A program made the position numbers and the translations under genes. 46,030 bases of DNA from a virus: positions 1-46,030 of the IMG/VR virus record IMGVR_UViG_3300027896_000072. One strand, given 5' to 3'. How positions within the stretch are numbered: position 1 is the stretch's first letter; each line of letters starts with the position of its first letter. A model generated the notes under the pieces. That model was given only the letters and a program-made list of their open reading frames with translations. It had not been told where the DNA came from and ran no database searches. Of the stretch, positions 14,743 through 17,949 are shown piece by piece.

Positions 14743-15028
14743 AGCAAGTTGCTCCTAAAAGTGTTCCCGAACCTGTAGCCGTCCAACTGCCAAATCCCAA
14801 CAAGGAATTAGGATTTGTGTTTCCTATTGTGATAAATACCGAACCCACCGGCCACATACTTCCTTGGGTAATCGGCGTTAGACTATCCTGTAAAGAATTA
14901 ACCGCCGAAGTAATAGACCCATTTTGCCCCAATAAAACCAGAATCTGATTGAAAAACAGTTTTAAATGAAGCCCTGTATAATTACCCTGCCCATCAGGGG
15001 TTGGTAGATTTAACAATGATTTTATCAT
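14720..15028 (-). CDS. Short collar/Gp10-C-terminal-like protein
   Basis: This 102-residue protein has a helical N-terminal half and a C-terminal segment 'WPVGSVFITIGNTNPNSLLG' and 'FGSWTATGSGTLLGA' (60-92). That is the signature of the receptor-end or collar domain seen in T4 Gp10/Gp12-type and many other fibre proteins. The domain stops early, soon after its first strands, so it is a minimal form. It starts by ATGA overlap with the gp10-like gene and may sit at the tail hub. A truncated relict of a longer fibre is also possible. Confidence 0.7.
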   Translation of the reverse strand: MIKSLLNLPTPDGQGNYTGLHLKLFFNQILVLLGQNGSITSAVNSLQDSLTPITQGSMWPVGSVFITIGNTNPNSLLGFGSWTATGSGTLLGATCYGWKRIN

Positions 15029-17949
15029 CTACTTAGTACCGTAAATTCTTCTTCCGCCTCTACGAGTACCAAGGGCACTGCGTCTGCGAAAACATATTCA
15101 TCCTGTCTGTATCTAAAAATCCCATTCTGTCTGAACTCTACTATGGAATAAACATCTCCTATCTTCCCAAGGCTTCCCTGTTTTTCAGCAGTCCACGACT
15201 GGTCATCAATCTTTGATTTCATCGTAAAAACAGGTTCTATACCAGTCGGTAAACCAGTTCCTCTTTGAATCGTAATCCTCAATCGTTCTGACCGTTTTTG
15301 GTATCTAATCCCGTAATCAATCATCCCTGTTCTCTTAACGACTCTTAAAATTGACTCAGCATCCGTGGCGTACTGACGGCTTATCTTGTAGATTTTTCCC
15401 GACCTTCTATCACCTACGAGGTCAAAACCCCATTCAGGGCACTTACAGGAGCATCTAGGTATCCACTGGTCAAACTCCGCAGTAGTAGTGTTCCACAACC
15501 CCCACTGACCCTGCCACATATCATTTTCAGCGTCATAAACTATCGTCAAATTTGAAGTAGGAAAGGTAATGACTATGAAGTTTCTTCCGTCACATTTAAC
15601 GGCAATAGAAAAAGCATCTTCAATCGTTCCCATTTTTTGCATGAGAGAAGCAAAAGGATTACTAACTACTTTAGGGGCACGGTTTATTAGTTGAACGAAG
15701 TTTCTGTCGTTATCAATCATCCAGTGCATATTCCCGTCAAAAATAACGCTATCAGGGGCGATAGTTCCAGTTTCACTTGTAAGACCTTCATACTTCGAGA
15801 ACGGAGAAGAACCGTCATTTACCCAGTATTCGATTGACTTCTTGCCGACAAGAATAATTGTATCGAAACGAGCATCAAGAGCCTGTAAGGTTTCTCCCTT
15901 TGCTTCCATGTTGGCGAAACTAAGTCCCTGCCATCCGGCACTGTAACTACTTCCTTCAACCCAAACATTTTTTACCGGTGAAGATAAAAGTTCAAATAAC
16001 CCATCTCCCATACTACCAGAAGTATTGATAGGGAAAGTGACTCCATTCCAATCAGTCACATAAAAAGTTCCCGCTGCATCTCCTCCCACCCAAGAACCAG
16101 AATCAATTACAATAGATGAAATAATGGCTGTTGCCGTCATATCCGCACTGTGAATCACTGACCCGATCGTAGGACTAATAACACCGTATGAAAAACTCAT
16201 TGTCCACATGGTTTGATTGGGAGCGTAAGCATCTTCGGATGTTAATTGCCAATAAGAAGCCCAAGCATTTCCCGTAATTGGTTGATTACTATTTACACTA
16301 ATGGGATTAGTTGTGGCTTCAGCAATTTGGTCTAGTATAGTCACGGAACTAATGGGGTCTGCTGTTGCTGTCGCTATTTTAACAGCAGGATTTAAGGAAG
16401 TAAAACCAACTGGAACAGAATACTTAAAGGCAGTTGCTCCAAAATTAGCCTGTCCTAGAGTGGCTGCTCCACCACTAGTTATTACTGAAATAGCTGGAAA
16501 TACCGTTCCTGTTATTCCTGTAAAAGCAACGCCTTGAGAAACTCCGTTTTTGTAAAACGTAAGAGTTCCGGCATCCATATTGAGAGCAATACCAATTACA
16601 TCATCGGTAGTATAAGCGGCTCCATAAGCACCCGCAGTGCCATTATGAATTTTGTACCCATCTGTACTAGCGTAAGACCATCCGTAAACATCGTTTCCAA
16701 TTTGATTGTTTAAATCTGCTGCTACAGTTGCGATACCAATATCAATATCAGTACCCCCGTAAAGTTTTACTTCCCAATAATATTTTCCACTAGATACACC
16801 AACTGTTCCCCTTATACCTCCCCAGTGTGAAGAGGATTGGCTAAAAACCGTCAATCCAATACCATCTCCACTAATACTTACATAGCTATTTTTGTCTGTA
16901 GTGCTCCATATTATTGGAACAGACCTATAAACGTAATTGGTTCCTGTAAAAAAAGGATTGCCATTCCATGATGTAAGATTAAAAGTCCCTGCGGCATCGC
17001 CTCCAGCAAAAGAACCCGAAGTTAAGGTTACAGAACCAACAACAGCTACGGAACTCTTATTCAAATTTTGTATCTGAAGTCCTGTCGGGTCATAACTTCC
17101 ATTTGTAAACGTCATGGTATAACCGGAAGAATTTGATCTATATAAAAATGTTCCTGCTCCAACTAGGAAATTAATCCCATTCCAAGTAGAAAGATACAAA
17201 GTTCCTTTAGCAGTACCATATACAAAAGCTCCCGACTCTAACTTTACAGATGATACTATCGCCACAGCAGTACCATCAAGGCTTGAAATCTGTAATCCCG
17301 TGGGGTCAAAAGTTCCATTGATAAAATTCATTGACACATTAGACATAGAGACAGCCACATGAGAATTAATACATAGATAGTTATTTCCGTCTGTCCCTTC
17401 GACTACATCAGCGGTATAAACTCCGGGGTCAGTCCACCTAAAAGTAGCGGTATCTTTCTCGTTAGCGATAACACGGTCATCCATGTAGGTAACGTGAGTA
17501 GCCGCCGTAGGGACTCCTAAACCTTGAGGATTTTTTAAAGTAACTAAATCGTCAGTATAAACCAACGCCCCACCAGAAGCCATAAAAGCGCACTTACCGC
17601 CTACGCCGACTTCTGCAAAATTAGTCAGTCCTTTGGTAAGGGTAACTCCTGTTAGTTGTGTTGCCGTTCCGGTTTGGTCTATTTTATAGACAAGTCCGTT
17701 ACTAACTGCTAGAAGAACTTTTTGAGAAGACCACCACCACAAACCGTCAACTGGGTAATCTCCTAAATCACAAAACGGAGTAGAAAGAAGCCCCGGTCTG
17801 TTCATAGTCAGGTATTTCTTTTCGTCTTTTAAATAATAAAGAAACCCATTAATAAGCAACGAGGATAAAGCAGACAAAGCAACATCTGTAACGTCAGCAT
17901 AGGGGGGCGTATTAATAGGGTTCTTTTTTATGTAAAAACCTTTAGCCAT
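15025..17949 (-). CDS. P22 gp10-like tail hub protein with inserted SPRY domain
   Basis: This 974-residue protein is about twice the P22 gp10 length. Residues 1-175 (RPGLLSTPFCDLGDYPVDGL, VYKIDQTGT) and 655-974 (FDTIILVGKKSIEYWVNDG, GTIAPDSVIFDGNMHWM, VYDAENDMWQGQW) match the beta-propeller-like packaged-DNA stabilisation or tail hub family. Between them are inserted two 70-residue repeats (about 205-270 and 278-340, with 'FDPTGLQISSLDG' and 'YDPTGLQIQNLNK'), a SPRY-type domain (about 345-515: SSGKYYWEVKLYGG, GTLTFYKNGVSQG), and a third repeat (583-640). A sugar-binding-like module is split by the insert: 'DGNNYLCINSH' at 187-197 and 'NQPITGNAWASYWQL' at 555-569. It closes the head after packaging and joins the tail; the insert is probably exposed. 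Confidence 0.85.
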   Translation of the reverse strand: MAKGFYIKKNPINTPPYADVTDVALSALSSLLINGFLYYLKDEKKYLTMNRPGLLSTPFCDLGDYPVDGLWWWSSQKVLLAVSNGLVYKIDQTGTATQLTGVTLTKGLTNFAEVGVGGKCAFMASGGALVYTDDLVTLKNPQGLGVPTAATHVTYMDDRVIANEKDTATFRWTDPGVYTADVVEGTDGNNYLCINSHVAVSMSNVSMNFINGTFDPTGLQISSLDGTAVAIVSSVKLESGAFVYGTAKGTLYLSTWNGINFLVGAGTFLYRSNSSGYTMTFTNGSYDPTGLQIQNLNKSSVAVVGSVTLTSGSFAGGDAAGTFNLTSWNGNPFFTGTNYVYRSVPIIWSTTDKNSYVSISGDGIGLTVFSQSSSHWGGIRGTVGVSSGKYYWEVKLYGGTDIDIGIATVAADLNNQIGNDVYGWSYASTDGYKIHNGTAGAYGAAYTTDDVIGIALNMDAGTLTFYKNGVSQGVAFTGITGTVFPAISVITSGGAATLGQANFGATAFKYSVPVGFTSLNPAVKIATATADPISSVTILDQIAEATTNPISVNSNQPITGNAWASYWQLTSEDAYAPNQTMWTMSFSYGVISPTIGSVIHSADMTATAIISSIVIDSGSWVGGDAAGTFYVTDWNGVTFPINTSGSMGDGLFELLSSPVKNVWVEGSSYSAGWQGLSFANMEAKGETLQALDARFDTIILVGKKSIEYWVNDGSSPFSKYEGLTSETGTIAPDSVIFDGNMHWMIDNDRNFVQLINRAPKVVSNPFASLMQKMGTIEDAFSIAVKCDGRNFIVITFPTSNLTIVYDAENDMWQGQWGLWNTTTAEFDQWIPRCSCKCPEWGFDLVGDRRSGKIYKISRQYATDAESILRVVKRTGMIDYGIRYQKRSERLRITIQRGTGLPTGIEPVFTMKSKIDDQSWTAEKQGSLGKIGDVYSIVEFRQNGIFRYRQDEYVFADAVPLVLVEAEEEFTVLSR

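Follow-up and report, generated by a model that had tools for sequence, protein, structure and literature searches.

A P22 gp10-type tail hub with a SPRY domain, three repeats and a split module, also present in the adaptor, at a single insertion site

The stretch of DNA analysed here (the window) spans an entire IMG/VR virus record (46,030 bases), which is classed as linear and is possibly a fragment. The genes around the tail hub follow one another, in transcription order, as coat protein, adaptor, a 210-aa ORF, hub, a 102-aa tail protein, a 149-aa protein and an ejection-type protein. The 102-aa tail gene directly after the hub gene matched Gp10_C, and the 149-aa gene downstream of the hub matched a tail-fibre adhesin PHROG family. 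The hub gene itself is a single ORF on the minus strand whose frame is open throughout its 974 codons. The features considered in this study are as follows:

22443-23360: coat protein, upstream of the adaptor in transcription order
18581-19462, minus strand: adaptor (gp4/gp11-like), 293 aa, assigned by the adaptor profile
18788-19021, minus strand: uninterrupted module copy in the adaptor, aa 148-225, placed by the adaptor-copy profile and the adaptor alignment
15025-17949, minus strand: whole ORF, gp10/Hc3-type tail hub with insert, 974 aa
17425-17949, minus strand: N-terminal part of the hub, aa 1-175, predicted start of the platform, then propeller as far as strand 3 of blade 3
17332-17424, minus strand: front piece of the split module, aa 176-206 (GVYTADVVEGTDGNNYLCINSH), aligned with the adaptor copy
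17122-17331, minus strand: repeat 1, aa 207-276, by the repeat profile
16921-17121, minus strand: repeat 2, aa 277-343, by the repeat profile
16381-16920, minus strand: SPRY domain, aa 344-523 (Pfam core 389-493), by Pfam, sequence and structure matches
16240-16317, minus strand: middle piece of the split module, aa 545-570 (ATTNPISVNSNQPITGNAWASYWQLT), aligned with the adaptor copy
16000-16206, minus strand: repeat 3, aa 582-650, by the repeat profile; the relative L048 is without a repeat here
15934-15975, minus strand: last piece of the split module, aa 659-672 (WVEGSSYSAG), by the adaptor-copy profile
15028-15936, minus strand: C-terminal part of the hub, aa 672-974, predicted rest of blade 3, blades 4-7 and platform

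The adaptor was identified with a profile of the ORFs that lie just upstream of gp10 in 70 cases, which matched the ORF at 18581-19462 among the window ORFs with an E-value of 1.1e-9. The hub gene lies downstream of it, directly adjacent in L002, which is one of two other virus contigs (L002 and L048) with the same hub design, and separated in the window by the one 210-aa ORF (17952-18584, minus strand). That ORF contains CxxC motifs and is HNH-like by eye, with no Pfam match, and it looks like a mobile insertion given that the adaptor and hub genes are directly adjacent in L002. A second ORF upstream of the adaptor (19630-20232, minus strand) is an HNH endonuclease by Pfam. Elsewhere in the window, an ATP-grasp protein resembling phosphoribosylglycinamide synthetase (8624-9901, minus strand; PF01071, E 1e-8) sits within the virion gene block and is also kept in L002. 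An 804-aa fibre-like protein (6219-8633, minus strand) has a weak match, just below the cut-off, to the second domain of Mtd (PF21916, E 1.5e-4); a diversity-generating retroelement acting on this fibre was considered and rejected, as there was no reverse transcriptase among the ORFs scanned. At the end of the fibre genes is a GDSL lipase/esterase (356-1153, minus strand; PF13472) with a signal-like N-terminus, which is possibly a cell-surface deacetylase.

An earlier note on this sequence had described the ORF as a gp10-like hub with its family parts at residues 1-175 and 655-974, and both parts were recovered here. PHROG 578 (head closure Hc3, the P22 gp10 family) matched residues 670-968 with an E-value of 1.3e-32, and a gp10 profile that drew on about 80 relatives encoded in viral contigs aligned residues 52-174 with model positions 53-169 and the C-terminal part (~665 to 970) with positions ~170-478; the whole-protein E-value, calculated against this single sequence, was 1.3e-49. 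Despite its low pLDDT, the full-length structural model matched P22 gp10 with a Z-score of 15.5 over 293 residues in the range 8-970. Membership in the gp10/Hc3 family was assigned on the basis of the profile matches on both sides of the insert, the fold of a platform with a seven-bladed propeller and the position of the gene after that for the adaptor. By both profile and predicted fold, the 974-aa ORF is a P22 gp10-type tail hub with one interruption of ~490 residues. In this family, six hub subunits form a ring below that of the adaptor, where they hold the tail needle and close off the tail channel. The hubs of P22 (gp10), Sf6 (gp8), Pam1 and Pan3 are homologous to the window hub on both sides of the insert, have an adaptor encoded upstream and share its fold; however, they are ~440-475 aa in length and have a tight turn, whereas the window hub has ~490 additional residues.

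The presence of a SPRY-type domain within this interruption, as had been proposed, was confirmed by Pfam, with PF00622 matching residues 389-493 at 83.7 bits versus a cut-off of 26.3 (E 1.4e-23). The same family was above its gathering cut-off in both relatives (L002, 66.7 bits; L048, 54.2 bits). A sequence search of solved structures returned RanBP10/RanBP9, DDX1 and ASH2L over residues ~338-522 (RanBP10 SPRY, E 6e-20), and residues 359-523 of the full-length model matched the ASH2L SPRY with a Z-score of 13.9 (rmsd 2.8 over 145 residues). As judged from these sequence and model matches, the hub SPRY is a genuine domain with the concanavalin-like SPRY fold. Two outcomes had been named in advance as fatal to the proposal, namely the lack of a SPRY match and a fold in which residues 190-570 make up one continuous domain of another kind; both were checked and the proposal stands. 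The SPRY domains of eukaryotic ASH2L, RanBP9/10 and DDX1 have the same fold as that of the hub (Z up to 13.9) at 26-31% identity, but they are intracellular peptide-binding adaptors. SPRY domains are most familiar from animal proteins, and their usual ligands are peptides of partner proteins.

That a SPRY domain is in itself unusual on a phage, as the earlier note had supposed, did not hold. One SPRY-derived peptide pattern led to about 40 viral contigs with SPRY, several PHROG families hold the domain (10080, 19943, 27411 and 37978), and it occurs in virion/tail genes of named phages. Among the named phages with SPRY are MEP301, Acidovorax ACP17, Bacillus phage G and Xanthomonas DoCa1. Jumbo phages have also been surveyed, and there SPRY is described as lectin-like and as present in tail fibres and virion components (PMC7824862). 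MEP301 gp16, the DoCa1 tail-tip protein and the four PHROG families resemble the window hub in having this domain family in virion/tail proteins; in them, however, SPRY is terminal or internal in fibre-like or siphophage tail-tip proteins, with no nesting in a gp10 hub. A separate tail-tip use of SPRY was seen in a Xanthomonas siphophage tail-tip protein (L053:2559-5507), which consists of Phage-tail_3 and a C-terminal SPRY.

The SPRY domain is accompanied by three repeats of ~68 aa, two of which precede it while the third follows the middle piece of the split module. Each repeat scored 95-116 bits with a profile that was trained on the three hubs' repeats, including the one being scored, and they are 39-51% identical to one another, with the common positions M-F-G-PTG-I-G-G-N-F. 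Repeat order differs between the hubs, there being two before SPRY and one after in L002, and three before and none after in L048. The module is uninterrupted in the adaptors of the window, L002 and L048 (GTD..YLC..DH....NqPiTG..W.sYWElC....W..GT.Y.sG), where its position corresponds, in ordinary adaptors, to the region after the lyPvP stretch and before the final helices. Its three motifs recur in unchanged order in the hub, where repeats 1 and 2 with SPRY come between the first and second motifs and repeat 3 between the second and third. With a profile of the adaptor copy, the re-joined hub pieces scored 49.9 bits versus 12.8, 21.8 and 5.3 bits for the pieces alone. No shuffled hub out of 5,000 exceeded 12.9 bits; when ordered pieces were drawn at random from the real hub, the sets without a complete front or middle motif reached no more than 30.0 bits, and those that scored >30.0 bits hold at least one of these two motifs. 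The middle piece is 79% identical in L002 and L048 each. The module is an extra relative to about 70 other adaptors.

These results agree with the earlier description of a module split by about 360 residues that hold two repeats and SPRY, with a third repeat thereafter: the gap from YLCINSH (ending at 197) to NQPITG (starting at 555) measured 357 residues, the adaptor copy is uninterrupted, and the repeat profile and Pfam placed the domains in that order. The nested insertion is real, but the module is cut twice rather than once, with repeat 3 being the second interruption. Its designation as sugar-binding-like was not supported, given that neither the adaptor copy nor the re-joined hub copy matched a Pfam sugar-binding family up to E 10, although absence of a match is not proof. 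Pfam returned nothing credible for the repeats, the split module or an extra insert in L002, and a search among phages with the adaptor module alone gave no match.

The L002 and L048 hubs are 61-69% identical to the window hub in their best segments, and only these three carry the insert, which was absent from about 80 other gp10 relatives in viral contigs. Ordinary relatives have 440-571 residues by open frame. The comparison with insert-free relatives that had been suggested as a check bore the insert out, in that ordinary hubs have a turn where the window hub has its ~490 residues. Similarly, the gp10-like hubs of QDWS535, MW202785 and MW202796, which have the same capsid protein type, are 392-539 aa in length and without a separate domain of this size. 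None of the 49 annotated phage records matched by the whole protein covers as much as 80% of it, and the annotated phage matches listed cover either the hub part or the SPRY part; a search of bacterial genomes with the whole protein, which depends on exact short peptides, found no relative. A SPRY domain inside a gp10-type hub appears to be a new combination, and the domain combination and nesting in the window hub are unusual, real and well defined. In handling these sequences, it is important to note that MAFFT misaligns N-terminal gp10 fragments and SPRY fragments when they are mixed with the full hub. The L002 hub (L002:6004-10131) has a further beta-rich insert of 321 residues between GLP and EPVFTM, with no Pfam match, in a loop of the C-terminal platform domain that is also longer in L099 (by 36 residues) and L109 (by 12 residues); this insert indicates that insertions are tolerated at more than one site of the hub, which counts against the host-binding reading favoured below.

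Alignment to the gp10 profile is interrupted at model positions 169/170, and the insertion point lies just after FRWTD, which corresponds to GTGQFQIT of ordinary hubs. The AlphaFold2 model of the full-length hub (37 sequences) had a mean pLDDT of 54 and a pTM of 0.29, which makes it good for fold matching and not for the pose of the insert; as such, structure prediction of the 974-aa protein, which had been put forward as a check, served to match the SPRY and gp10 folds but placed them poorly. The model of an insert-free relative, L064, had a pLDDT of 90.7 and a pTM of 0.90, with four-stranded units at 58-91, 100-128, 140-174, 182-221, 232-261, 281-319 and 326-355, their grouping into blades being our interpretation of the listed strands. 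The insertion point maps to the third unit, after strand 156-160 and before strand 167-174. The L064 model gave full-length alignments to P22 gp10 with a Z-score of 38.8, to the SU10 nozzle with 25.7 and to the phiCrAss001 muzzle with 26.8 (432 residues). Foldseek with this model also found T7 gp12, and the propeller-platform fold common to L064, the crAss muzzle and the SU10 nozzle puts the hub in the nozzle/muzzle frame. From these models we infer that the insert leaves the third propeller blade at the loop joining its strands 3 and 4.

The T7 nozzle tip emerges from a blade-3 loop (PMC6702177), the nozzle domains of SU10 are inserted between blades 2 and 3 (PMC9509320), and the crAss muzzle has one Ig domain between blades 2 and 3, another in blade 3 and more domains nested in loops, all at the tail tip and likely in contact with the cell (PMC10172136). 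The equivalence of these sites was derived by strand counting on L064 and from the papers rather than from residue-level superposition, and blade numbering varies between papers. Since blade 3 is the region that has the distal nozzle and muzzle domains in T7, SU10 and phiCrAss001, the tail tip is a likelier location than the neck, and the insert, by analogy, most likely points outward at the tail tip, in the direction of the cell. The neck or collar position that the earlier note had assigned is probably wrong. The phiCrAss001 muzzle gp44 and the SU10 nozzle gp17 resemble the window hub in being gp10-fold propellers; both are at the tail tip and have inserted beta domains near blades 2-3, and in the muzzle there are also insertions nested within inserted domains, so the nesting in the window hub is of a known kind. 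In contrast to the window hub, the inserts of gp44 and gp17 are Ig-like or have the 'crass fold' rather than SPRY, and the phages are otherwise different.

The insert has changed much faster than the rest of the hub. In comparison with L002, dN was 0.52 for SPRY, 0.27-0.42 for the repeats and 0.07-0.14 for the hub; with L048, the values were 0.50, 0.35-0.49 and 0.18-0.29, respectively. Synonymous change was saturated or nearly so throughout, and dN/dS ratios are therefore not quoted. Amino-acid identity to the relatives is 43-48% for SPRY versus 71-85% for the two hub parts, and amino-acid change in SPRY and the repeats is roughly 2-7 times faster than in the hub core. This pattern fits a surface in contact with the host, although weak constraint would give the same pattern. 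The surface- or partner-binding role that had been suggested for a collar is likely, even though the collar position is not.

The sequence matches and predicted structures show a hub core with a single insertion site, the SPRY domain, three repeats and a module shared with the adaptor; the exit loop, a distal arm and SPRY as its binding head are inferred from them. We lean somewhat toward a reading in which SPRY is borne on a distal nozzle arm of the hexameric hub and binds the host surface at adsorption. The ~490-residue insert would leave blade 3 as a distal 'nozzle' arm, built of small beta repeats and ending in SPRY as the binding head, and in this short-tailed phage six such arms would surround the tip of the tail. 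During adsorption, the SPRY head would attach to a host-surface molecule (protein or glycan), and this contact would help to position the tail or trigger gate opening. The module common to adaptor and hub would be the scaffold into which such domains were inserted. Supporting host contact are the faster change of SPRY and the repeats than of the hub core and the SPRY at the C-terminus of the siphophage tail-tip protein in L053. A bolder version, in which SPRY is the primary, fast-diversifying receptor binder on a podovirus nozzle and the module, in adaptor and hub alike, serves as a general socket into which domains can be swapped, is tentative and on the doubtful side.

The strongest competing explanation, rather unlikely though deserving of weight, is that the insert is a docking platform on which SPRY or the shared module holds a tail fibre or spike. 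The usual binding of SPRY to peptides of partner proteins would suit such a role, as would the same module being in both adaptor and hub and the small tail genes directly after the hub (102-aa Gp10_C and 149-aa adhesin PHROG). There is also the precedent of T7, in which the fibre is held between paired docks on adaptor and nozzle (PMC6702177). However, binding to a partner would be expected to hold back change in an internal dock, whereas SPRY has diverged much faster than the hub; moreover, hub relatives with fibres manage without the insert. Fast amino-acid change is also what would be seen if the insert were a passenger or decoration tolerated at a permissive loop with no strong function, as would be the variation in repeat number and order among relatives (as in L048) and the complete absence of the insert from about 80 other gp10 proteins. 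We consider this improbable because a useless domain would be lost, whereas all three hubs of the group keep an intact, in-frame SPRY above the Pfam cut-off despite saturated synonymous change.

The origin of the insert raises two further alternatives, both of which were rejected. Recent capture of a eukaryotic SPRY gene is suggested by the best sequence matches among solved proteins being animal RanBP10/RanBP9, but the phage domains are closer: the hub SPRY is 41% identical to that of MEP301 (a Methylophilales phage), the closest outside the group of window, L002 and L048, and 38% identical to that of a Xanthomonas phage, versus 31% for RanBP10. In addition, the SPRY-coding stretch differs little from the hub in GC content (0.40 versus 0.42-0.43) and SPRY is widespread in other phages, which together make such a capture very improbable. 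A false fusion through assembly or annotation could be imagined for a metagenomic record that is linear and possibly a fragment; with the same order in L002 and L048 despite saturated synonymous change, and a frame open throughout, we regard it as effectively refuted.

SPRY domains in phage virions and nested insertions in tail-tip propellers were already known. The favoured reading, of an arm-borne SPRY at the host surface, would mean that P22-like propeller hubs can grow by insertion in the part of the propeller that is also extended in the T7 and SU10 nozzles and the crAss muzzle, with SPRY as the payload, and would link plain gp10 hubs to the giant muzzle proteins as one insertion series. 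It would also provide a testable case of a phage SPRY at the host interface. Furthermore, the hub SPRY bears on the proposal that eukaryotes acquired their SPRY domains from phage-type lectins (PMC7824862).
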